In this document: positions 5,977-36,178 of the stretch, one piece after another
Position numbering within the stretch: the first letter of the stretch is position 1
Layout of the letters: the number at the start of each line of letters is the position of its first letter
NCBI RefSeq assembly: GCF_001514195.1
Contig: NZ_KQ948736.1
Coordinates: 128,895 to 192,894 of the forward strand
Reading direction: 5' to 3'
Source of the DNA: Streptomyces griseorubiginosus
GTDB taxonomy: Bacteria > Actinomycetota > Actinomycetes > Streptomycetales > Streptomycetaceae
Length of the DNA: 64,000 bases
Made by a program: the position numbers and the translations under genes
Notes under the pieces: generated by a model
Seen by the model: the letters and a program-made list of their open reading frames with translations, nothing else
Database searches by the model: none
Told to the model about the DNA's origin: nothing

Positions 5977-6002
5977 CCCCCGTCCGGAGCGCTTCCCCGC
6001 AC

Positions 6003-6068
6003 GGTGCGGCCGGGACCGGGCCCGGCCCGGTGCCCGGTGCGGCCGGGACCGGGCTCGGCCCGGTGCCC
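6003..6068. repeat. Two 33-bp tandem repeats forming palindromic terminators
   Basis: Two nearly identical 33-bp units (6003-6035 and 6036-6068, one base different) lie between convergent genes. Each unit carries a self-complementary core (GGGACCGGGCCCGGCCCGGT type) that can fold into a strong hairpin. A bidirectional terminator for the amidohydrolase gene and the sigma-factor operon is the likely role. Confidence 0.6.
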
Positions 6069-6102: not shown

Positions 6103-6591
6103 TCACACCGTCAGCCAGTCCGTGACGATCACCTCTTCGTCGGTGCGCAGGCGCAGGGCGAACGGGCCGGTCGGGGGCACCTCGCAGGTGAAGCGGCCCA
6201 TGTCGTCGGTGGTGAGCGGTGCGCCCGGCTGAGGACCGCTGAGCACCTCGATGCGGGCCGACCGGGGCGGCAGCACCTGGCCCATCAGTCCCTGCGCGGT
6301 GAGTTCGACGTCGACCGTCACCTCGCCCGCGTGGAAGGTGAGCATCCGGGGCGCCGCCGGCCCTCCCCGCACGGGGAGGGCGTCGACCACCGAGTCGAAG
6401 GACAGCTCGGCGATACGGCTGTCCAGGTCGTGCAGCGCGAACGCCTCGACGGCAATCTGCCGCAGGGCCGCCGGCACGGGGTCCAGGATGGCGGTGGCCT
6501 GCCGGAGCTCCTCCTCCAGCAGGTCCAGGGCCAACTCCTCGTCGGGCAGGGCCTCTTCGGTGAAGAGGTCGTCGAGGTCGTCGTCGCTCAT
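6103..6591 (-). CDS. Acidic protein translationally coupled to the sigma factor
   Basis: This 162-residue protein has no signal peptide or membrane segment. Residues 1-30 are strongly acidic (DDDLDDLFTEE...) and predicted helical, followed by a helical block (DPVPAALRQIAVEAFALHDLD) to about residue 70. The last 80 residues look like a beta-sandwich of the carboxypeptidase-regulatory or Ig-like type. Its ATG overlaps the TGA of the sigma-factor gene (ATGA, 6588-6591), so the two are made together, as is typical of sigma/anti-sigma or sigma/adaptor pairs. I recall similar proteins beside actinobacterial CHAT and sigma genes, but no biochemical function. I infer a regulator or tether of the sigma factor or of the module's proteases; this is unproven. 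Confidence 0.7.
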   Translation of the reverse strand: MSDDDLDDLFTEEALPDEELALDLLEEELRQATAILDPVPAALRQIAVEAFALHDLDSRIAELSFDSVVDALPVRGGPAAPRMLTFHAGEVTVDVELTAQGLMGQVLPPRSARIEVLSGPQPGAPLTTDDMGRFTCEVPPTGPFALRLRTDEEVIVTDWLTV

Positions 6592-7163
6592 ACCGCCCCC
6601 CGGGCTTCGAGCCGCGCCCGCAGCCGCCGCAGGCAGCGCTGGCGCAGTGGTCCGATGCTGCCCACCGCGATCCCCAGGGCGGCGGACACCTCCTGGTAGC
6701 CGGGTTTCGGGGACGCCATCAGAATGCGCAGCAACTGCCGGCAGCGGTCGCCGAGTTCCTCGAACTCCTGCCACAGGCGCCGCACCCGCTCGCTCTGCGC
6801 GGCGGCCTCCTCGGAGTCGATGAGGGACTGCTCGGGCGTACGGTCCTCGCTGATCCGGTCAAGGAGTTGCGGATCGTCCGTGACGGTCAGCCGTCTTAAG
6901 CTCTTGAGCACCTTCAGGCACTCGTGGCGCGCGGTGCTGGCCAGCCAGGACTTGGCCTTGTCGGGTTCGCGGATCCGCCCCAGGTGCTGGGCGAAACGGA
7001 ACCAGACGGTCTGGTACACCTCGTGCGCGTCGGCGTCGGAGAGGCGGTGCGAGCGCACCACCGACCACACCAGTGGGCTCAGCCCCTCCACGAGCGCCTT
7101 CCAGGCCGCCGCGTCGCCGTCGACGGCGGACTGGACCAGCCCACCGACATCTGCTCGGTCCAC
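6588..7163 (-). CDS. ECF-like RNA polymerase sigma factor with a TTA codon
   Basis: The 191-residue protein has two sigma-70 domains: region 2 at about residues 20-90 (VYQTVWFRFAQHLGRIREPDKAKSWLASTARHE) and a region 4 helix-turn-helix at about 130-186 (YQEVSAALGIAVGSIGPLRQRC). It should direct RNA polymerase to a small regulon. GTG 7163 was chosen because AGGGGTGGG lies just upstream. Leu89 is encoded by TTA (6897-6899) followed by AGA, both rare codons in Streptomyces; TTA needs the bldA tRNA, so translation may depend on development. No classical transmembrane anti-sigma gene is adjacent. The coupled acidic protein downstream and the S8/CHAT proteases upstream are the likely partners. Confidence 0.85.
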   Translation of the reverse strand: MDRADVGGLVQSAVDGDAAAWKALVEGLSPLVWSVVRSHRLSDADAHEVYQTVWFRFAQHLGRIREPDKAKSWLASTARHECLKVLKSLRRLTVTDDPQLLDRISEDRTPEQSLIDSEEAAAQSERVRRLWQEFEELGDRCRQLLRILMASPKPGYQEVSAALGIAVGSIGPLRQRCLRRLRARLEARGAV

Positions 7164-7222
7164 GGTCCCACCCCTCGTGTACGGCAAGTCATCGTACGCC
7201 GTGGAAGGGACCACTCCGGCCC

Positions 7223-8650
7223 TCATGCGCCGACCGGGCGCTGCACGACCGGCACCGGACGCCAGCCGGCCGGCCTGAGCGCCGGGACGTGCGCCCCGCG
7301 CACTTCGGCGAACTGGGTGTTGGCGGCGAGGAGTTGACTCCGGGCGGCACGCGGGTCGGTCTCCTTGTTCGCGGTCATGTGGGCGGCGACCAGACCGGCG
7401 ACGACCGGGGTGGCGAAGGAGGTGCCGCTCCAGTGCGCGTACCCCTCGAACATCACCTGGTCCGGCTTGACGGTGCCGCCGTCCTCGCTCAGCACCCCGA
7501 CGTGGGACGGGGACTGGCAGGTGCAGACATAGGTGAAGCCGTACCGGCAGGCCTCGTAGGTGGAGTGCTGGTAGGCGTACGGTACCGGTGCGTCGAAGCC
7601 GGTGAGGGCGCTGGTGAGGCGCTCGCCGGGGGCGTAGACCTTCACCCAGGAGCCGTGGTTGCTGAAGCAGGCGCCGAACTCGCCGTCGCCGCGCAGCGCG
7701 CCGACCGACAGGACGACGTCCCGGTACTCGGGCAGGTCGGCGTAGGCGGCGGGCCAGAAGGGGCTGGCGCTGGCGTTGTTGCCGGCGGCGGCGACCAACA
7801 GGGTGCCGTGGGCGTGCAGTTCCTGCATGAAGGCGTCCATGCCGAGCAGTCCGTCGGTGCGGCCGTTGGAGGTGCCCGCGGACAGGCTGATGATGTCGGG
7901 CCAGCCGTCGGCGACGGCCTCGAAGAGCCGGTCGCCGAGCTCGGACTCCAGGATGGCGCCCGCGTCGTTGAGGGTGTTGCGGACGGTGATGTCGGTGTTG
8001 GGCGCGACGGCCGCGAGGACACCGGCGATGAAGGTGCCGTGGCCGACGTACTGGAGGAGGTTGCCGTCCGCGTCGGTCTCGGTGCCGTGCAGGTCGCCGT
8101 CGACGTGGGCGAGCAGCGGGACGAGCGCGTGGTCGTGGGTGAGGCCGTTGTCGACGACGAGCACGCCCACCGCGGTGCCGGGGTCGTGAGCGGCTTCCGC
8201 CGGGGCCGGGTTGGTGCCCTGGCTGAGGGAGGCGGGCACGGGTTCGTCGCCGGGGCAGGAGTTGACGGCGATCGACACCACGTGGTTGCGGCTGACGATC
8301 CGGCGCCCGGCGCGGCCCTCGCGCTCGCTCATGGCGCGCAGCGCGTGGGTGACGGCGCGGTCGCCGCGCCGGTCGCCGTGACCCGGGTCGCCGACCTTGA
8401 TGCGGGTGATGCCCGAGCGGTTGGTCTCGGGACTGTCCCGGCGCACGTGGTCGCCGGTCAGACCGGTCGCCGCGGTGAAGTGGGTGCGGACGGTCTCCTC
8501 GACGAGCGCCGCGTCGCGGCCGTCCCGGGCGAGGACGACACCCTTCTCGTAGATGAACTCCGAGGCGTCGTCGGGCCCGAGGGCCAGGGGGACATCGGGC
8601 ATGGAACGCTGGATCTGGTCGAACTGCTCGTGGAATCGCTGAGGTGCCAT
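7223..8650 (-). CDS. Cytosolic subtilisin-like (S8) serine protease
   Basis: The 475-residue protein carries a complete subtilase triad: Asp167 (VLVVDNG), His204 (GHGTFIAGV) and Ser411 (GTSFATPVVAG), with oxyanion Asn291 (AAAGNN). There is no signal peptide and no membrane anchor, unlike most secreted subtilases, so it should act in the cytoplasm. The first 160 residues are a family-specific N-terminal region that might act as a prodomain or sensor. An insertion at about 353-395 carries Cys368, Cys376 and Cys378 and may bind metal. ATG 8650 follows GGGAGGAC. It lies 60 bp upstream of the sigma gene on the same strand and is divergent from the CHAT gene, which points to one functional module. 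Confidence 0.88.
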   Translation of the reverse strand: MAPQRFHEQFDQIQRSMPDVPLALGPDDASEFIYEKGVVLARDGRDAALVEETVRTHFTAATGLTGDHVRRDSPETNRSGITRIKVGDPGHGDRRGDRAVTHALRAMSEREGRAGRRIVSRNHVVSIAVNSCPGDEPVPASLSQGTNPAPAEAAHDPGTAVGVLVVDNGLTHDHALVPLLAHVDGDLHGTETDADGNLLQYVGHGTFIAGVLAAVAPNTDITVRNTLNDAGAILESELGDRLFEAVADGWPDIISLSAGTSNGRTDGLLGMDAFMQELHAHGTLLVAAAGNNASASPFWPAAYADLPEYRDVVLSVGALRGDGEFGACFSNHGSWVKVYAPGERLTSALTGFDAPVPYAYQHSTYEACRYGFTYVCTCQSPSHVGVLSEDGGTVKPDQVMFEGYAHWSGTSFATPVVAGLVAAHMTANKETDPRAARSQLLAANTQFAEVRGAHVPALRPAGWRPVPVVQRPVGA

Positions 8651-8758
8651 GGCGTGTCCTCCCACTGGGCGGCGGTCGTCAGTCAGAGCCGCGGGACCGG
8701 TCATTGATACAGCGCCGAACCGGTGTGGCCCGCCACCCGTGGCACTACCATCCTTGGG

Positions 8759-11365
8759 GTGACAGCGGGAAGCGACTCGGTTCTCGAACTTCTGCCGATG
8801 GTGTTCGCCGCCCCCAACCAGGCGCTGGCGAGGGCGGAGGAGGTACTCGGCTCCGATCCCTCACCGCTGCACGCCTCCGTGGCCCACCAGGTGATCGGCA
8901 TCTGGCAGCGGGACTGGGGCGACCTGCGGATCGCCCTCGACCATCTGCGCCGCGCCCGTGATCTCGCGGCGCGCTCGGAGTCGGCCGACCGGGAGGCGGA
9001 CGTGCTGGCCGCGCTCGGGGTGGCGCTGGTGCACGCGGGGCGCACCCGGCAGGGGCTCGCGGCGCTGGAACGGGGGGTCGAGGTCGCCGGCGGGCACACC
9101 CGCGCCCGGGTGCTGTTCCGGCGGGCGTACGCGTCCTGGGTGCTGGGGCAGCACAAGGCGGCGCTGGAGGACGTACGGCGGGCGATCCCGGTGCTGCGGC
9201 AGGCCGAGGACGTGATCTGGACGGCGCGGGCGCTGACCCTGCGGGCGACCGTGCATCTGGCGCTCGGCGCAGTGGAGCGCGCGGACGCCGACTTCACGGC
9301 GGCGGAGGCGCTGTGGGACACCACGGGCCAGGAGCACGACAAGGCCGACGCGGTGGAGAGCCGGGGCCTTGCCGCCTACCGGTCGGGGGACGTCCCGGCG
9401 GCGCTGCGGCTGCTGGACGAGGCGCAGGAGCGGTACGCCAAGCTCGGCACACCGACGTTCATGCTCACGGTCCGGCGCTGCGAGGTCCTGATGGCAGCGG
9501 GGCTGGCCCGGGAGGCGCTCGCGGAGGCGGACGCGGCGATCAAGGTCCTCGACGGCATCGGCGGACAGTCGACGCTGAAGGCGGAACTGCTGCTCGCCGC
9601 CGCGCGGGCGGCCCGGGTCGAGGGGGACGCGCACACCGCGATCGCACGCGCCGACCTGGCGGTACGGCTGTTCGCGGGGCAGCGGCGCTCCTGGTGGGAG
9701 ACGCATGCCCGGCTGGTGCTGATCGAGGCACGGGTCGCCGCGGGGCGTGGTTCGGGGCGGCTGGTCGCGGACGCGGCGGCGGTCGCCGAGCGGCTGGCGT
9801 CCTTCGGCGCGCCGGCGGCCCCGGAGGCCTCGCTGCTGGCGGGCCGGATCGCGCTGGTCCTGGGGTGGCGCGAGGACGCCCAGCGGCATCTGGAGGTCGC
9901 CGCGCGCAGCCGGCACAGCGGGCCGCCGCTGGCGCGGATGACGGGCTGGGCGGCCCGGGCGCTGTGGGCGCGGGCCGTGGGCTCCGACCGGCGGGTCCTG
10001 GAGGCCTGCCGTCGCGGCCTGGACGTGCTCGACGACCACCGGACGACACTGGGAGCCTCCGAGCTCAGGGCCCGGGCCACCGCGCAGGGCGCGGAGCTCG
10101 CCGCGCTGGCCGCGCGGGCCTCGCTCGCCTCGGGCGGACCGCGCCGGCTGCTGGTGTGGAGCGAGCGCTGGCGGGCCACCGCGCTGTCCGCCCCGCCGAC
10201 CCGCCCACCGGCCGATCCCGGCCTGCTCAGCGATCTCACCGCGTTCCGGGAGATCGCCGCCCGGGCGGAGGCGGCCCGGACGGAGGGGCGGCCGGTGCCG
10301 GCGCTGGAGCGTGAACAGCGGCGCCTGGAACGGGAGATCCGCTCCCGCACCCACCACATCCGCGGCGACGCCCCCGGTGACGGCTACCGCTTCGACCCGG
10401 CCGAACTGCTGGAACGGCTCGGCGACGACGTACGGCTGGTCGAACTGGCCGTGCTGGACGGGCGGGTGCAGGTGCTGCTGTGCGGGCGGGGGCGGGTGCG
10501 GCGGTTCGAGGGCGGCCTGCTGGCCGACGCGGAACGCGAGGCGGAGCACGTCCAGGCGGGCCTACGGCGGCTCGCCCACCCAGGTGCGGAGGCGCGGCTT
10601 CCGGTGGTGGAGGCGGCGGGGCGGCGGCTGGAGGAGCTGCTGCTGGGCCCGGCGGCGGCGCAGCTCGGCTCCGGGCCGGTCGTGGTGGTGCCGCCGGGGC
10701 GGCTGCACCGGGTGCCGTGGGCGCTGCTGCCGTCGCTGCGGGAGCGGGTGTTCAGCGTGTCGCCGTCGGCGAGCAGCTGGCTGCGGGCGCACGGGACCGC
10801 GCCGCCGGACGGTGGACGCCAGGTCCTGGTGCGCGGGCCGGGGCTTGCGACCGGCGGCGCCGAGGTGCCCGAACTGGCCGGACGCCACGGTTCGGCGACC
10901 GTCCTGGAGTACGACGAGGCGCGCGTGCCGCGGGTGCTGGAGGAGCTGGACGGGGCGGCGCTGGCCCATATCGCGGCGCACGGCACGTTCCGGGCGGACA
11001 GCCCGTTGTTCTCCTCGTTGCGGATGGCGGACGGGCCGCTGATCGTCCATGACTTCGAGCGTCTCGACCGCAGCCCCTACCGGATCATTCTGTCCTGCTG
11101 CGACACGGCCCGGTTCGCGTCGGTCGGCGCGGACGAACTGCTCGGCCTGGTCACCGCGTTGCTGCCGCTGGGCACGGCGGGGGTGGTGGCGTGCAGTGCG
11201 CCGGTCAACGACGAGGCGGTGGTGCCGTTGATGCTCGCGCTGCACAAGGGGCTCGGTGCGGGGGCGTCGATGGCGGAGGCGTTGCGGGACGCGCGGGCCG
11301 CGCTGCCGGGGGACGCGGTGCATCAGGCGACGGGGTGGGCGTTCTCGGCGTTCGGGGCGGCGTAG
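8759..11365 (+). CDS. TPR-repeat protein with C-terminal CHAT (caspase-like) protease domain
   Basis: The protein is about 868 residues. The N-terminal two thirds are alpha-helical, alanine- and arginine-rich TPR-type repeats (for example ALDHLRRARDLAARS, LAALERGVEVAGG). The last 250 residues are a CHAT domain, a clan CD cysteine protease fold shared with caspases and separases. The catalytic His is in AHIAAHGTF (codon 10979-10981) and the catalytic Cys in ILSCCDTA (codon 11099-11101). TPR-CHAT proteins act as switchable proteases in bacterial conflict systems, for example Csx29 in Craspase. GTG 8759 is a possible leaderless start, with TACCAT a few bases upstream; GTG 8723 would add 12 residues. 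It is divergent from the S8 protease gene. Confidence 0.88.
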   Translation: MTAGSDSVLELLPMVFAAPNQALARAEEVLGSDPSPLHASVAHQVIGIWQRDWGDLRIALDHLRRARDLAARSESADREADVLAALGVALVHAGRTRQGLAALERGVEVAGGHTRARVLFRRAYASWVLGQHKAALEDVRRAIPVLRQAEDVIWTARALTLRATVHLALGAVERADADFTAAEALWDTTGQEHDKADAVESRGLAAYRSGDVPAALRLLDEAQERYAKLGTPTFMLTVRRCEVLMAAGLAREALAEADAAIKVLDGIGGQSTLKAELLLAAARAARVEGDAHTAIARADLAVRLFAGQRRSWWETHARLVLIEARVAAGRGSGRLVADAAAVAERLASFGAPAAPEASLLAGRIALVLGWREDAQRHLEVAARSRHSGPPLARMTGWAARALWARAVGSDRRVLEACRRGLDVLDDHRTTLGASELRARATAQGAELAALAARASLASGGPRRLLVWSERWRATALSAPPTRPPADPGLLSDLTAFREIAARAEAARTEGRPVPALEREQRRLEREIRSRTHHIRGDAPGDGYRFDPAELLERLGDDVRLVELAVLDGRVQVLLCGRGRVRRFEGGLLADAEREAEHVQAGLRRLAHPGAEARLPVVEAAGRRLEELLLGPAAAQLGSGPVVVVPPGRLHRVPWALLPSLRERVFSVSPSASSWLRAHGTAPPDGGRQVLVRGPGLATGGAEVPELAGRHGSATVLEYDEARVPRVLEELDGAALAHIAAHGTFRADSPLFSSLRMADGPLIVHDFERLDRSPYRIILSCCDTARFASVGADELLGLVTALLPLGTAGVVACSAPVNDEAVVPLMLALHKGLGAGASMAEALRDARAALPGDAVHQATGWAFSAFGAA

Positions 11366-11395
11366 TCCCTGCCGGAGGTGCGAGGTGTGGTGCGT

Positions 11396-11441
11396 GGGGC
11401 GGCCTGACCCCTCCCCCGAATACTGGGGGTCAGACCGCCCC
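11396..11441. terminator. Bidirectional stem-loop terminator
   Basis: Two 16-nt arms (11396-11411 and 11426-11441) pair with a single mismatch around a 14-nt loop. The stem lies between the convergent CHAT and LuxR-family genes, about 30 nt past one stop codon and 15 nt past the other, and should end both transcripts. Confidence 0.8.
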
Positions 11442-11455
11442 GGTCCGTGTCCGGC

Positions 11456-13429
11456 TCAGGCCGGTTGTGCCTCGGGCAGCTCCACCAGGCACGGCAGCGC
11501 GTCGCGGTCGCTCGCGCCGAGGCGGGTGTAGGCGCCGTAGAGGTGGTTGCCGACGGTCCGGACCGACAGGGTGAGCTTCTCCGCGATCTGGCGGTTGGTG
11601 AGGCCGGCGGCGGCGAGGGTGACGATCTGCCGCTGGCGGGCGGTGAGTTCGCCGAGGACCAGCCCCGCCAGGGCCGGGGTACGGGCGCCCTGGCAGCGGC
11701 GGGCCAGGGCGACGGACCGGGTGCGGGAGGTGCGGGCCGCGCCGGGGTCGCGGTGCGCCTGCGCCGCCTGGGCGTACGCCTCCGCCGCGAACAGCAGGAA
11801 ACCGCGCTCCTCCAGCGTCCGGGCCGCACGGTCGAGGGCGGGTCCGTCTCCTTGGGCGAGCGCGTCGGCGTGCGCGGCGAAGACCCCGGTCAGCCGGCCG
11901 ACGGCCCGCTCGGGCGCACCGAGGCGGACGGCGTCGTACGGCTCCGCACCGACGGCGTCCAGGGCGGCGTCGAGGTCACCGCGAGCGGCGGCCCACCAGG
12001 CGGCGGCGCCGGATGAGGGGGGCGTAGGGGTGCCGGGGTCGACGGCACTGGCTGAGGGGGCCGCAGGGGTGCCGGAGTCGGCGGCACTGGCTGAGGGGGC
12101 CGCAGGTGTCCCGGGGTCGGCGGCGGACGGGCCGCCCCTGTTCACCGACCCCGAGCCGCGGATCCGCGCCGACATTCGTTCCAAGTCGTCGCCCCCTGCC
12201 GCCACCACTCGCCCCGCCTCGCCCGACTGGGCCGTCGACAGGGCGAGTTCGAGGTGGCAGGGGTGGTCTTCGGGGGTGGTGCGCAGGCCCTCCCGGGCCC
12301 AGGAGGCGGCCTCGCGCAGTTGGCCGCGCAGGCGGGCGAAGCGGGCTCGTACGGCGGCGTGCGGGGCCGGGATGCCGATGCCCTCGGTGACGAGCCACTC
12401 CCCCACCGGCGCCGGTACGGCCCGTACGTCCGTCTCGGCGATGGCCCGCGCCAGGGCGGCCGTCTCGGTCTCCAGGGCGGCCGTGCGGTCGGACGGGGTG
12501 CGGGCCAGGCGGCGGGCCCTGAGGCGGCCTGCCACCGAACGGAGCACCGGGCCGTGGAGGGGGTGGGCGAGGCTCGCGGTGCCGTGGTCGTCGATGTGGA
12601 CCAGGCCGTCGGCCTCCAACACTTCGAGCGCGCCCAGGTCGAGCGTGTCGGCGTCCACGGGGAGCGGTTCGCCGAACGCCAGGCGGTCCAGGGTGGCGCG
12701 CTCGCCGGGGTCCGCGCGGTCGAGGAGGTCCGCGAGGCGTTCGCGCACGGTCGCGGTGACCGGCACCGGGCCCCGCCACTCCCACTCGCCCGAGTCCGGG
12801 ACGCGCGACAGGAGCCCCTGCTCGCGCACCGCACCCACCAGCTCCCGCAACAGCCGCAGATCGCCCTGGCAGAGCCGGTGCAGCCGGCTGACGGTGAGGG
12901 CCTCCAGGCCGCCCGCGCCGGCCGCGAGCAGCTGCGCCGTCTCCTCGCGGGGCAGCGGCTCCAGGTCGAGGCGCGGCAGGAGTTCCCCGGTCCACAGACG
13001 GGTGATCGCCCCCGGTGCCCGGGCGCCCTCGGTGGCGACGACCAGGAGCCGGGTGCGGCCGTGCACGGCGAGCTGGTGGACCAGGGCGGCCGAGGCGTCG
13101 TCGAGCAGATGGGCGTCGTCGACCAGCAACAGCCGTACGCCTGAGAGCAGTTGGACCGCGCGATGCAGGGACACGGTGTCCGGGAGCAGGTGGGCGAAGG
13201 CGGCAAACGGGAGGTCGCGGGTCTCGGGCGTCCCCGTCGCCCGCGCGCAGTCGGTGCCGCGCACGGCCTCCGTGACCAGCAGGGTCTTGCCCCGCCCCGC
13301 CGGACCGGTCACCACAATGCCGTGCCGGCCGCCGGCCACGGACCCGCGGATCAGCTCGAGTTCGTCCTGGCGCCCGGTGAACGGCCAGGGCGGTCGCAGG
13401 CTTGTCGCGTCCCGTTCGAATGTCGTCAC
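11456..13429 (-). CDS. LuxR-family regulator with N-terminal P-loop ATPase domain
   Basis: The 657-residue protein resembles the LAL/STAND-type LuxR regulators. A Walker A motif, GPAGRGKT, is at residues 42-49, a Walker B (RLLLVDDAHLL) is near 102, an AAA/STAND-like core follows, then a divergent helical middle. The C-terminal LuxR helix-turn-helix ([20 protein letters not shown], then IAEKL and SVRTVGNHL) occupies about residues 585-645. Such proteins bind DNA and often sense a ligand or protein partner through ATP-driven oligomerisation. GTG 13429 is the start. A proline/alanine/serine linker in the middle is made of three 13-residue repeats. The divergent metalloprotease gene, with an inverted repeat between them, is a likely target. 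Confidence 0.85.
   Translation of the reverse strand: MTTFERDATSLRPPWPFTGRQDELELIRGSVAGGRHGIVVTGPAGRGKTLLVTEAVRGTDCARATGTPETRDLPFAAFAHLLPDTVSLHRAVQLLSGVRLLLVDDAHLLDDASAALVHQLAVHGRTRLLVVATEGARAPGAITRLWTGELLPRLDLEPLPREETAQLLAAGAGGLEALTVSRLHRLCQGDLRLLRELVGAVREQGLLSRVPDSGEWEWRGPVPVTATVRERLADLLDRADPGERATLDRLAFGEPLPVDADTLDLGALEVLEADGLVHIDDHGTASLAHPLHGPVLRSVAGRLRARRLARTPSDRTAALETETAALARAIAETDVRAVPAPVGEWLVTEGIGIPAPHAAVRARFARLRGQLREAASWAREGLRTTPEDHPCHLELALSTAQSGEAGRVVAAGGDDLERMSARIRGSGSVNRGGPSAADPGTPAAPSASAADSGTPAAPSASAVDPGTPTPPSSGAAAWWAAARGDLDAALDAVGAEPYDAVRLGAPERAVGRLTGVFAAHADALAQGDGPALDRAARTLEERGFLLFAAEAYAQAAQAHRDPGAARTSRTRSVALARRCQGARTPALAGLVLGELTARQRQIVTLAAAGLTNRQIAEKLTLSVRTVGNHLYGAYTRLGASDRDALPCLVELPEAQPA
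12002..12118 (-). repeat. 39-bp in-frame tandem repeats
   Basis: Three 39-bp units encode 13-residue repeats of the type DPGTPAAPSASAA in the LuxR-family regulator. Two units (12041-12079 and 12080-12118) are nearly identical and the third (12002-12040) has diverged. The repeat forms a flexible linker, and copy number could vary by slippage without shifting the frame. Confidence 0.75.
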
Positions 13430-13445
13430 GGAAGCAAGAGCACCG

Positions 13446-13491
13446 CTACTCAGGTCTGATACAGGGGGACTTGAGTAGCCCCCGACTCAGG
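13446..13491. promoter_or_regulatory. Inverted-repeat operator candidate between divergent genes
   Basis: CTACTCA (13446-13452) and TGAGTAG (13472-13478) form a perfect inverted repeat with 19 nt between the arms. A further ACTCAGG half-site lies at about 13485-13491. The site sits in the 95-bp gap between the LuxR-family gene and the metalloprotease gene, where a LuxR-type dimer could bind and control both. Confidence 0.45.
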
Positions 13492-13524
13492 CGCCCCCGG
13501 ACGCCCGACGGCACGCTGGGACGC

Positions 13525-14610
13525 ATGACCGCTCGCTACTGCTCCCTCGCGCAGCAGTCGGCTCCGGCGTTCGCTCCGGGGCTGGCCGCCGAGCGGCTGA
13601 GCGCGCTCGCCGGCGGCGGTCGGATGTGGGTCAACAGCACGGTCCTGCACTACTGCTTCTTCGACGGCGACTCCGACGGGTCGGTCATTCCTGTTCCGGG
13701 GACCGGGCAGAACCGCCGGGTGTCGTGGGTGGGCGCCAAGGAGCAGCGGGACGTGGTGCGCGAGTGCTTCCAGGAGTGGCAGGACCTCGGGGTGGGGGTG
13801 CGTTTCACCGAGGTCGGCGACCGTTCGGAGGCCGAACTGCGCATCGGGTTCCAGCTCGGCGACGGATCCTGGTCGACCGTGGGCAGGGACGCCCTGCGGG
13901 TCGGGGTGAACGAGCGCACCATGAACTTCGGCTGGGACCTGACCGCGCCCGGGGAGCGCGGGACGGCCCTGCACGAGATCGGGCACGCGCTCGGCATGCA
14001 GCACGAGCACCAGAGTCCGTTCGCCGGGATCCACTGGGACGAGGAGGCCGTCTACGCCGATCTGGCGGGCCCGCCGAACCATTGGAGCCGGGACCGGACG
14101 TTCTTCAACATCCTGCGCAAGCTCGACCCGGACGAGGTCAACGGCTCCGTCTGGGACCCGCAGTCGATCATGGAGTATCCCTTCGGGGCGGGGCTGATCC
14201 TGGAACCGGAGCAGTTCCGTGCGGGCCTCCACCCGCCCGGCACCCTGTCGGCCGCCGACAAGGAGTACGTCCTGCGCTGGTATCCGCCGACCGAGCCGGT
14301 CCGGCCGCCCGCGCTGGTGCCCTTCCGGTCCGCCCCGCTGGGGCTCGGGCCGGGCGGGCAGGCCGACTTCACGGTGGAACCGCCGGAGACCCGCGAGTAC
14401 ACCGTGGGCATCTTCGGCGACGCCGACACCGTCGTGGTGGTCTTCGAGGAACGGGACGGAGAAGCCCGCTACCTCTGCGGCCACGACGACGGAGGCACAC
14501 CGCACAACGCAACGCTCAGGGCCCGTCTCGTCAAGGGCCGCCGCTACTTCGTCCGTGTGCGCCTGTACTCCGCGTGGGGTTCGGGGGAAACCGCGGTCAT
14601 GTGCTGGTGA
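13525..14610 (+). CDS. Astacin-like (M12-type) zinc metalloprotease
   Basis: The 361-residue protein has the metzincin signature HEIGHALGMQHEHQSP at about residues 154-169, with Met-turn SIMEYPFG about 60 residues later. The catalytic domain covers roughly residues 30-260. A C-terminal beta-sandwich of the pre-peptidase type follows (YTVGIFGDADTVVVVFEE... YFVRVRLYS). No signal peptide is visible from ATG 13525, so the protein may be cytosolic or exported by another route. The frame is open further upstream to 13402, but that part overlaps the operator region and the divergent start and looks non-coding. It is divergent from the LuxR-family regulator, probably its controller. The substrate is unknown. 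Confidence 0.85.
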   Translation: MTARYCSLAQQSAPAFAPGLAAERLSALAGGGRMWVNSTVLHYCFFDGDSDGSVIPVPGTGQNRRVSWVGAKEQRDVVRECFQEWQDLGVGVRFTEVGDRSEAELRIGFQLGDGSWSTVGRDALRVGVNERTMNFGWDLTAPGERGTALHEIGHALGMQHEHQSPFAGIHWDEEAVYADLAGPPNHWSRDRTFFNILRKLDPDEVNGSVWDPQSIMEYPFGAGLILEPEQFRAGLHPPGTLSAADKEYVLRWYPPTEPVRPPALVPFRSAPLGLGPGGQADFTVEPPETREYTVGIFGDADTVVVVFEERDGEARYLCGHDDGGTPHNATLRARLVKGRRYFVRVRLYSAWGSGETAVMCW

Positions 14611-34003: not shown

Positions 34004-34702
34004 GTGACCGGCCCGTTGAGGGCCGCGGTGCTGCCTCCGTCGCTGCGCGCGCCGCTCGGAGTGGTCGGGGCCCTCGCCGCGCTGGTGGTCGCCGTGCTCG
34101 CCGTCCTGTTCGCCGGGCACAGCCGGCCCAGCAGGGTGGACCGTTGGCTCGTCTCGCCGACGGCGGACAGCGTACGGCCGCCGTTGCGGTACGTCGCCGA
34201 CACCCTGGACTTCCTCGGGGAACCCACGGGATCGGTGATGGTGGTCCTGGCCGCCGTGACCTGCTGCCTGCTGCTGCGACGCCCTCGCGCGGCCGTCCTC
34301 ATGCCGGCCGGCGTCGGCCTCGCCGTGGGCACGGCGACGCTGCTCAAGCAGGTGGTGGGCCGCACCATCCACGGACCCGAGAACCTGTCCTATCCGAGCG
34401 GCCACACCACCTTCTTCACGGCCCTCGCCTTCGTCGCGGCGCTGCTCGCGACCGACCGGCTCGGGCTCGGCGGCAGGGCCGGCACGTCCCTCGTGCTCGC
34501 CGCCACGCTGGTCGCCGGCGCCGCGATGGGATGGGCGGAGGTCGCCCTGGGCGCGCACTACCCGACCGACGCGCTGGGCGGCTGGTGCACCGCGCTGGCG
34601 GTGGTCCCGGCGACCGCGTGGCTGGTCGACCGGGTCGCCGACCGTGGGGCCGAGCGGTCGGTCGGCCCCACGGTCGGCGCCGGTCGGCGAGAGGGTCGCT
34701 GA
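34004..34702 (+). CDS. PAP2-family membrane phosphatase
   Basis: The 232-residue protein is a phosphatidic-acid-phosphatase (PAP2) family enzyme with about six membrane helices. Phosphatase motifs are KQVVGRTIHGP (motif 1) near residue 114, YPSGHTTFF (motif 2) near 132 and EVALGAHYPTDALGG (motif 3) near 183; the usual SR of motif 3 is AE. The active site faces outside. Beside a polysaccharide locus it could dephosphorylate undecaprenyl diphosphate to recycle the lipid carrier. GTG 34004 follows GGTGGGAAA. It converges on the long polysaccharide operon. Confidence 0.87.
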   Translation: MTGPLRAAVLPPSLRAPLGVVGALAALVVAVLAVLFAGHSRPSRVDRWLVSPTADSVRPPLRYVADTLDFLGEPTGSVMVVLAAVTCCLLLRRPRAAVLMPAGVGLAVGTATLLKQVVGRTIHGPENLSYPSGHTTFFTALAFVAALLATDRLGLGGRAGTSLVLAATLVAGAAMGWAEVALGAHYPTDALGGWCTALAVVPATAWLVDRVADRGAERSVGPTVGAGRREGR

Positions 34703-34731
34703 CCTCACGCGGAACGACGGAGACAGCCCGC

Positions 34732-34876
34732 CTTCGCCACGCCGGGCGACGAAAGACGGGCTTCGCCACGCCGGGCGACGAAAGACGGGCTTCGCCACGC
34801 CGGGCGACGGAACACGGGCTTCGTCACGTCGGGCGACGGAACACGGGCTTCGTCACGCCAGGCGGCGGAACACGGG
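34732..34876. repeat. Five 29-bp tandem repeats overlapping the aminotransferase 3' end
   Basis: Five contiguous 29-bp units (starts at 34732, 34761, 34790, 34819 and 34848) share the pattern CTTCGCCACGCCGGGCGACG plus nine more bases ending ACGGG. The fifth copy contains the last codons and stop of the minus-strand aminotransferase gene (encoding KPVFRRLA), so the array looks like repeated duplication of that gene's end. The unit is not a multiple of three. Confidence 0.9.
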
Positions 34877-36178
34877 CTTCACCGGTCGGCCGCCCGTCCA
34901 GGGGGTGGGGTCGGCGGCGTCCAGTGCCTTCCGGTACACCGCACACGCCTGGGCCACCGCGTCGACGGTGTGATCGATGTCGGCGTCGGTGAGCGCGCTG
35001 CTCACCACGAACGACGGGGCCAGCACCCCGCCCGCGAGGAGCCGGCGCAGGAACAGCGTGCGGTACTCCTGTGACGGCTGCCCGTTCTCGTCGAGGGTGG
35101 CGAAGACCAGGTTGCTGGCCCGGCCCCGGACGACGACGTGCTCGCCGACGCCCATGCCGGCCGCGGCGTCACGGACGCCCGCGGCCAACCGCTCGCCGAG
35201 GGAGTGCAGCCGCGCGGTGACGCCCTCTTCGGCGTAGACGGTCTGCACGGCCATCGCGGCGGCCAGCGAGTGCGTCTCCGCGCCGTGCGTGGTGGAGAGC
35301 AGGAACACCCGCTCGCCGGAGTGCCGCAGTCCGCCCCGCTCCATCAGCTCACGGCGACCGGCCAGGGCGGAGACGGCGAACCCGTTGCCCAGCGCCTTGC
35401 CGAACGTCGAGAGGTCCGGGACGACGCCGTACAGGCCCTGGGCGCCCGCCTCGGACCAGCGGAACCCGGTGATCATCTCGTCGAAGATCAGGACGCAGCC
35501 GTGCCGGTCCGCCAGTTCGCGCAGGCCGGCCAGGTAGCCGGGCGGCGGCTCGCTGTGGGTGGCGGGTTCGAGGATCAGACAGGCGATGTCGTCCTGGTGG
35601 CGGGTGAGCAGTTCCTCCGTGGCCGCCAGGTCGCCGTAAGGGAACGCCACCGTGAGCTCGTTGGTCGACGCGGGGATGCCGGCGGACATCGGTGTGGTGC
35701 CGATGAACCAGTCGTCGGTGGAGAAGAACGGGTGGTCGGCGCAGAGGGCCACCCGTCGGCGCCCGGTGACGGCGCGGGCGAGCCGCACCGCGGCCGTGGT
35801 GGCGTCGGAGCCGTTCTTGGCGAACTTCACCATCTCGGCGGTCGGCACGGTGGCCAGGAACCGCTCCGCGGCCTCGGCCTCCACGAGGGAGGGGCGGACG
35901 AAGTTGCTGCCGCGGTCGATCTCCCGCCGGACCGCCTCGGTGACCCGTGGGTGGGCGTGCCCGAGGCTGACCGAGCGCAGGCCGGAGCCGTACTCGATGT
36001 AACGGTTGCCGTCGACGTCCCACACATGGGCACCGCGGCCGTGGCTGATGACCGGGGCCACGTTCTCGGGGTACTGGTCGTCGCCCTTGGCGTAGGTGTG
36101 GGCGCCGCCGGGGATCAGGGCATGGAGCCGTTCGTTGGCCGCACGCGACCGGGGCAGCTGGAAGTCTTCGCTGGGCAA
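34853..36178 (-). CDS. Glutamate-1-semialdehyde aminomutase-like PLP aminotransferase
   Basis: The 441-residue enzyme is a class III PLP aminotransferase of the glutamate-1-semialdehyde 2,1-aminomutase type. Lys261 in STFGKALGNG should bind PLP, and IFDEMITGFR carries Asp233. GSA-type enzymes in polysaccharide and secondary-metabolite loci often act on sugars or small keto compounds, so heme synthesis is unlikely. TTG 36178 follows AAAGGTGA, which overlaps the end of the epimerase gene (7-bp gap). It is the last gene of the operon, and its 3' end is duplicated in the 29-bp repeat array. Confidence 0.87.
   Translation of the reverse strand: MPSEDFQLPRSRAANERLHALIPGGAHTYAKGDDQYPENVAPVISHGRGAHVWDVDGNRYIEYGSGLRSVSLGHAHPRVTEAVRREIDRGSNFVRPSLVEAEAAERFLATVPTAEMVKFAKNGSDATTAAVRLARAVTGRRRVALCADHPFFSTDDWFIGTTPMSAGIPASTNELTVAFPYGDLAATEELLTRHQDDIACLILEPATHSEPPPGYLAGLRELADRHGCVLIFDEMITGFRWSEAGAQGLYGVVPDLSTFGKALGNGFAVSALAGRRELMERGGLRHSGERVFLLSTTHGAETHSLAAAMAVQTVYAEEGVTARLHSLGERLAAGVRDAAAGMGVGEHVVVRGRASNLVFATLDENGQPSQEYRTLFLRRLLAGGVLAPSFVVSSALTDADIDHTVDAVAQACAVYRKALDAADPTPWTGGRPVKPVFRRLA

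Follow-up and report, generated by a model that had tools for sequence, protein, structure and literature searches.

A Sigma Factor, a Small Acidic Partner, and Two Proteases Are Encoded at One Locus

Within a 64,000-nt stretch of Streptomyces griseorubiginosus DNA (contig NZ_KQ948736.1, positions 128,895 to 192,894; hereafter the window), which belongs to a host genome of 9.87 Mb in 29 contigs, four adjacent genes encode a sigma factor resembling those of the extracytoplasmic function (ECF) group (SIG), a small acidic partner that is a candidate anti-sigma factor (ACID), a subtilase (S8), and a caspase-like protease (TPR-CHAT, or CHAT). An earlier reading of the bare sequence, the original prediction, had picked out these genes and proposed that they form a proteolytic switch independent of CRISPR. 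All four were confirmed to be present, and our analysis suggests that they may operate a sigma-factor switch gated by proteolysis.

S8 (7223-8650, 475 aa), SIG (6588-7226), and ACID (6103-6591, 162 aa, pI 4.05) follow one another on the minus strand, and TPR-CHAT (8759-11365, 868 aa) is read from the plus strand. SIG shares ATGA overlaps with both its neighbors, which couples S8 to SIG and SIG to ACID, and the start of ACID at position -4 (ATG or GTG on the SIG stop) is kept in 41/42 loci of the same genus. In the exception, L045, SIG and ACID were deposited as one reading frame; CHAT and a neighboring LuxR gene are broken there as well, which makes an indel in the assembly the probable cause. 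SIG matches TIGR02937 over its whole length (2-165/165, E 3.4e-21) and PF04542, which covers region 2 (E 6.3e-11); a separate match for region 4 was not found in the Pfam scan, and the protein has the sigma2 and sigma4 regions only, as befits an ECF factor. S8 matches PF00082 (E 7.3e-20) and CHAT matches PF12770 (E 1e-26) plus TPR_12. ACID yields nothing but a subthreshold match to CarboxypepD_reg, also weakly seen in 4/5 distant relatives scanned.

The four genes lie where they had been placed, but two starts had to be moved after intergenic alignment of relatives: that of S8 from 8704 to an ATG at 8650 preceded by GGAGG (8662-8658), and that of CHAT from 8723 to a GTG at 8759, because several relatives have a stop just 5' of that GTG. 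A conserved -10-like TACCAT in this alignment (8746-8751, plus strand) stands just 5' of the GTG, so placed that the CHAT start would be leaderless. Of the two strong inverted repeats that were said to bound the genes, the left one lies in a GC-rich, twice-repeated 33-nt stretch (5999-6064) that does fold strongly as RNA (z -3.6), whereas the right one (11366-11455) is a moderate hairpin (z -1.6, with 16/200 shuffles as good).

The Four-Gene Module Is Conserved across Actinomycetota

Relatives of ACID were found in 35/100 genomes with ACID as the query, in 119/394 genomes of the class with a different query, and, using an ACID profile, in 56/396 genomes of the phylum, some of these matches being weak or partial. 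The 29 loci with a close ACID relative are all from Streptomyces; a second search added 13, and SIG, ACID, S8, and CHAT occur together in all 42 of these same-genus loci, which are not all independent, at least two pairs apparently coming from the same genome. Outside the genus, we scanned 85 loci (25 plus 60 from the class-wide search, the latter mostly its better-scoring places, hence a nonrandom draw) with profiles built from the module proteins, and kept 84 from 74 genomes after dropping L086, which had no ACID by profile. In these distant loci SIG lies directly upstream of ACID on the same strand in 81/84, while CHAT is within the fetched stretch in 71, S8 in 63, and both in 60. Where 6 kb or more of flanking sequence is available on each side (60 loci), 58 have SIG, 52 CHAT, 46 S8, 45 both proteases, and 7 neither. 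The 12 loci scanned outside the class all have ACID, with SIG adjoining in 11 and both proteases in 7.

The genes stand together across several families, whereas a failure to be conserved together would have refuted the original prediction; a stand-alone module of sigma factor, partner, CHAT, and S8 is supported. The sole point in favor of a fortuitous neighborhood of unrelated genes is that each kind is common in actinobacteria, but the synteny counts, from 42 loci of the genus and 84 distant ones, put the grouping far beyond chance. The module also persists in shuffled orders (13 arrangements among the 84 distant loci, partial sets counted) and as a split set: ten distant loci have SIG and ACID with neither protease nearby, and 8/8 genomes of this kind that were searched have a full-length CHAT relative elsewhere, each time flanked by S8 in divergent orientation. 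A chance grouping can therefore be given practically no weight, and the module and its conservation are strongly supported.

The surroundings, too, recur within the genus. On the ACID side, genes for N-formylglutamate amidohydrolase (FGase) and isocitrate dehydrogenase (ICD) are present in 41/42 same-genus loci, and on the CHAT side a gene for an AAA_16/STAND-LuxR regulator (11456-13429, minus strand) is present in 31/42. ICD, DUF5713, FGase, LuxR, and a metalloprotease are the annotated neighbors in the window; no cas gene is among them, neither Cas7-11 nor a CRISPR array is present at the locus, and the closely spaced direct repeats of the window (three families) are head-to-tail tandem copies without spacers, in agreement with the CRISPR-free character proposed for this locus. 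A search of the whole genome gave no match to Cas10, and Cas7-11 was not sought genome-wide; type III-E systems are not known to have Cas10, so this null result is uninformative about them.

These neighbors bear on what the module is for. It might act in abortive infection, with CHAT switched on by a phage and S8 then amplified through SIG to the point of cell death; a CHAT protease and sigma-factor relief are described to act in type III-E defense in passages of two reports (PMC10028731, PMC9729208). However, the same chromosomal neighbors in 41/42 same-genus loci are not those of a variable island, and PADLOC returned nothing beyond a generic subtilase, weak fragments of IetS, and the LuxR protein by its helix-turn-helix (HTH) region, so that we consider an antiphage role distinctly unlikely. 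The constant ICD and FGase neighbors would suit a regulator of stress responses or development no less than a defense system.

Separate from these findings, three 39-nt direct repeats lie within the LuxR gene (12001-12117), and a 29-nt tandem repeat array, picked up as six 58-nt copies that overlap in register, occupies 34693-34895.

A Promoter-Like Element Precedes the S8 Operon and a LuxR Gene

A promoter-like element of ECF type, TGTATCA-N16-CTCTGA, stands before S8-SIG-ACID (8683-8711, minus strand). TGTATCA-N16-CTC is found on the S8 side of the gap between S8 and CHAT in 43/43 same-genus sequences (window included), and the full CTCT(G/C)A version is upstream of S8 in 35/43. The host genome has a single match to TGTATC-N16..18-TCTGA, the one at 8683-8711, and the reversed control also has one. 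Across the genus, the full element has 33 sites in 28/121 genomes, versus 1 for the reversed control. Thirty of these sites were inspected: 23 are at S8/CHAT, 2 at LuxR, and 5 elsewhere; the other three are G016:26579, whose position fits S8/CHAT, G506:9662694, and G482:C57. When 61 same-genus genomes were typed, the element was present in 11/14 that carry ACID versus 0/47 that do not (in G013 it occurs only elsewhere in the genome, and an ACID match of E 1e-3 in G026 was counted as absent).

The same element precedes the LuxR gene. In the window TGTATCA-N16-CTC (13435-13463, minus strand) is separated from the LuxR GTG by 5 nt and differs at 2 positions from the full element of the S8 type. 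This 5-nt spacing recurs in 29/29 sequences with a placeable start, with 0-3 mismatches to the S8 element; the 29, window included, come from the 31 LuxR loci plus the window after matches lacking an N terminus were dropped. Within the genus the LuxR gene itself goes with the module, being detected (E 1e-22 or better) in 11/13 ACID-bearing versus 1/24 other genomes (G000-G036; the exception, G001, is 79% complete, the ACID match in G026 again counts as absent, and only 43 first-look candidates were scored per genome).

The modules of the distant loci contain 48 sites of TGTATCA-N15..18-CTC (45/84 loci, 468 kb), and 3 more lie outside them (972 kb); 60 permuted -35 words gave a mean of 0.17 and a maximum of 3, and the reversed word none. 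Two genera of another family (L140/L142 and L150) have the element 5' of another AAA_16-LuxR gene near the module, the L150 site being one of the three outside modules. The promoter-like element is therefore strongly supported, and its position and co-occurrence lead us to infer that it is recognized by SIG.

Some sites were set aside. Loose matches were ignored because, at 3 mismatches, the host genome gave fewer of them than the reversed control (133 versus 209). Not counted as regulon sites were L189, with no clear gene start, and L186, L205, L213, and L214, some 100 nt 3' of related genes; these last four same-genus genomes share TGTATCA-N16-CTCTCA downstream of related large genes. In L164, L167, and L168 the element points away from SIG toward a conserved small protein of 126-144 aa, possibly a further SIG target; of the two such proteins scanned, one had no Pfam match and the other a weak match to Dak2. 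In the gap between LuxR and the metalloprotease gene (13430-13500), the words ACTCA, TTGAGTAG, and GACTCAGGCG are conserved across the 29 sequences aligned. This region, which in the window forms a hairpin (z -1.9), may be an operator to which the LuxR regulator binds.

ACID Has a Near-Invariant Arginine in a Predicted Linker

When ACID was modeled alone with AF2 (28 Streptomyces rows plus the window; pLDDT 68.6), helices were predicted at residues 18-36 and 41-62 and strands from residue 82 on, with pLDDT below 50 over residues 63-78. The protein is thus predicted to be a pair of helices joined through a low-confidence linker to a C-terminal beta-sandwich. Only four residues are invariant over 52 diverse ACIDs, Arg75, Gly104, Gly132, and Phe134, and the first of these (codon at 6367-6369, minus strand) falls in the low-pLDDT stretch. 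Arg occupies this position in 96/97 sequences (96 distant ones plus the window) by two alignment methods, in 93/97 by a third, and in 29/29 Streptomyces ACIDs. It is preceded by Val, Leu, Ile, or Thr in 93/96 and followed by Gly, Ser, or Ala in 87/96. Arg75 is accordingly a candidate cleavage site, the alternative being that it contacts SIG.

ACID is not a classical membrane or zinc-binding class I anti-sigma factor. None of the 84 relatives has a membrane segment (no 19-residue segment above 1.8 on the Kyte-Doolittle [KD] scale, hydropathy of the distant ACIDs being measured from the profile match to the C terminus), and the alignment shows no Cys or His conserved in all or nearly all sequences that could serve as a zinc ligand. 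Nor is acidity a constant, fitting though that description is for the protein in the window: the pI of relatives, N termini left out, is below 5.5 in 68/84 and ranges from 4.1 to 9.0. Foldseek found no match of the model in the Protein Data Bank (PDB) at E <= 0.001. VIA-align gave Z scores up to 8.7 with assorted Ig-like and beta-sandwich domains, mostly over residues 77-162, which in this predicted model would reflect a common arrangement only; no anti-sigma factor is among the best 50 rows, which excludes nothing. Similarly, a profile of the 52 ACIDs matched no PDB chain at E <= 0.001 and, at E <= 1, four chains other than Csx30.

Both Proteases Keep Their Catalytic Residues, and S8 Has No Apparent Signal Peptide

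As the original prediction had noted, the catalytic residues of both proteases are intact, and this extends to the relatives. By alignment, the Asp/His/Ser triad is kept in 63/63 distant S8s, and the catalytic His and Cys in 65/70 distant CHATs scored (L068, with a score below 100, was omitted); the matches in the other five break off where a contig stops. Hydropathy gives S8 no apparent signal peptide, again as predicted, and by the same measure 62/63 distant S8s have no membrane segment. About 160 aa of N-terminal region precede the S8 catalytic domain.

A CHAT profile matches 8rot, a 991-aa CHAT-domain protein of solved structure (E 5.8e-12), type III-E TPR-CHAT chains (E 1.6e-9), and Csx29 (E 3.8e-7), with separase at E 0.03 or worse only; the single protein of the window reaches just E 0.8. 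A passage of PMC9729208 aligns the separase residue that recognizes the P1 Arg with K670 of Csx29-type TPR-CHAT. Separase-like recognition of a P1 Arg by CHAT was rejected as a candidate, the expected acidic residue not being found at that position. Where this family has an almost invariant CHAT Asp (31/32 rows), the Csx29-type chain has a Ser four residues before K670, so that this Asp is not the counterpart of the P1 residue of separase.

A third protease of the system may be encoded nearby: divergent to LuxR, on the CHAT side, an astacin/matrixin-like metalloprotease gene (13525-14610) is present in 29/42 same-genus loci, its product having no signal peptide apparent by hydropathy.

A Protease-Gated Sigma-Factor Switch Is the Favored Reading

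We propose, with a probability of roughly 0.55, that the module is a CRISPR-independent, protease-gated, self-amplifying sigma-factor switch. ACID would keep SIG inactive until TPR-CHAT senses a signal and sets off a proteolytic arm, consisting of CHAT alone or acting via S8; the extra protease S8 suggests that this arm may have two steps. ACID would then be cut in the linker between its helices and its beta-domain, at or near Arg75, and the freed SIG would transcribe from TGTATCA-N16-CTC promoters. One of these being that of its own S8-SIG-ACID operon, positive feedback would follow and more S8 be made, and in some lineages SIG would also drive the adjacent STAND-LuxR regulator. Inhibition of SIG by ACID with proteolytic relief is likely. 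The proteolytic switch put forward in the original prediction is partly borne out, by the module, the intact proteases, the promoter-like element, and the linker Arg, but not by the CHAT residue expected to read that Arg.

Several observations weigh against this switch. The position equivalent to the separase P1-Arg residue is mostly V, A, R, or K in this CHAT family; since it is not acidic, cutting by CHAT after Arg75 is left without support from it. This absence speaks for a two-step cascade in which the enzyme that cuts ACID after Arg75 is not CHAT itself but S8, once CHAT has activated it, with the N-terminal region of S8 serving as a brake. S8 accompanies CHAT in most distant loci and in the eight split genomes searched, and it is the first gene behind the conserved element in the genus; a SAVED-CHAT/PCaspase cascade is reportedly a precedent for such a scheme. 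SIG, ACID, and CHAT without S8 nearby in 11/84 distant loci, a count that also tells against the proposed switch, make the cascade rather unlikely on balance. A group of nine loci (L156, L157, L160, L162, L163, L165, L169, L171, and L178) has SIG-ACID-CHAT with neither S8 nearby nor the TGTATCA element, and the sigma factor of this group may use another promoter.

Three of the 84 distant loci have S8 but no CHAT, and ten have neither. The latter, together with the position of S8 behind a SIG-type element, would suit a nonproteolytic role for ACID, as an anti-sigma factor or coactivator that contacts SIG through Arg75, the proteases being outputs of the SIG regulon such as cell-death or clean-up effectors. 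Yet Arg75 lies beside small residues in a low-confidence linker and not in a predicted helix, the eight such genomes searched have the S8-CHAT pair elsewhere, and in seven of them, from family f21, no TGTATCA is found in the fetched stretch around that pair; we regard this explanation as improbable, somewhat more so than the cascade. The divergent ACID of L254, with His in place of Arg75, comes from a locus without CHAT or S8 in the fetched stretch.

The element raises objections of its own. It was not found inside 39/84 distant modules, nor in any of the 11 CHAT-without-S8 loci, and a module-gene match is the nearest called open reading frame (ORF) for just 23/51 distant sites. Two more sites are at S8 by Pfam (L065 and L126) and three precede LuxR genes; the remaining ones precede short ORFs or other genes, some pointing away from the module, and several lie farther upstream of S8 or SIG. 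Finally, an AF2 fold of the L045 fusion was rejected as evidence for a SIG-ACID complex (pLDDT 53, pTM 0.31); it used 12 SIG and 19 ACID rows, a subset among 150 random ones chosen for correct MAFFT placement of the ACID rows (6/150).

Comparison with Known Protease-Sigma Factor Systems

In the type III-E Craspase, passages of PMC10028731 and PMC9729208 describe how the TPR-CHAT protein Csx29 cuts Csx30, support relief of CASP-sigma, and place CASP-sigma motifs in its own locus. The module resembles what is described there in its TPR-CHAT with a catalytic His/Cys dyad, small partner, ECF-like sigma factor, and sigma-type motifs within the locus. It differs in having no Cas7-11 or other cas gene among its annotated neighbors here, an ACID without relation at the sequence level to Csx30 or any PDB chain, an additional S8 protease without apparent signal peptide, and a distribution over several families and classes of Actinomycetota, the CHAT proteins themselves sharing a distant profile similarity (E 1.6e-9 to 3.8e-7). 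Like CalpL/CalpT/CalpS, as a passage of PMC11417357 presents it, the module would bring a protease, a candidate anti-sigma factor, and an ECF sigma factor into one switch, but the Pfam scan of its four proteins turned up neither Lon nor SAVED. With no cas neighbors, no relation of ACID to Csx30, and no Lon or SAVED domain, we did not file it under either system.

EACC2-caspase systems, predicted conflict systems with a caspase-type peptidase beside an ECF sigma factor and with TPR (DUF1822) proteins, outlined in part of PMC8195603, are likewise comparable, but the module has S8 and ACID and no DUF1822 match in the Pfam scan, in which EACC2 and TRADD-N domains were not separately searched. Sequential proteolysis with autoregulation governs RpoE release by RseA/DegS/RseP/ClpXP, according to a passage of PMC8103513, and would be shared by the module; the proteases are different ones, and by hydropathy ACID (84/84) and S8 (62/63) have no membrane segment. 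The terms "sigma factor" and "CHAT" are absent from PMC7159879, and no description of this module was found in the open full-text literature searched, subscription journals and preprints lying outside that scope.

More tentatively, and short of even odds in our view, the module may represent an ancient, Actinomycetota-wide sigma switch. A separase-like CHAT and a subtilase of the cytoplasm would work one after the other on a single anti-sigma family at a near-invariant Arg, and promoters with a conserved TGTATCA -35 box would be driven; CRISPR type III-E would have put this logic to use later or in parallel. If the proposed switch is real, the CHAT-to-sigma logic known from type III-E CRISPR would also be that of a stand-alone regulator in several actinobacterial families. 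Experimenters would gain predictions of the cut site, of a cognate promoter suited to a reporter, and of a direct target, the STAND-LuxR regulator, as well as a natural two-plus-two split of the genes in some genomes, and the large uncharacterized family of ACID relatives sampled across the class would gain a candidate function.

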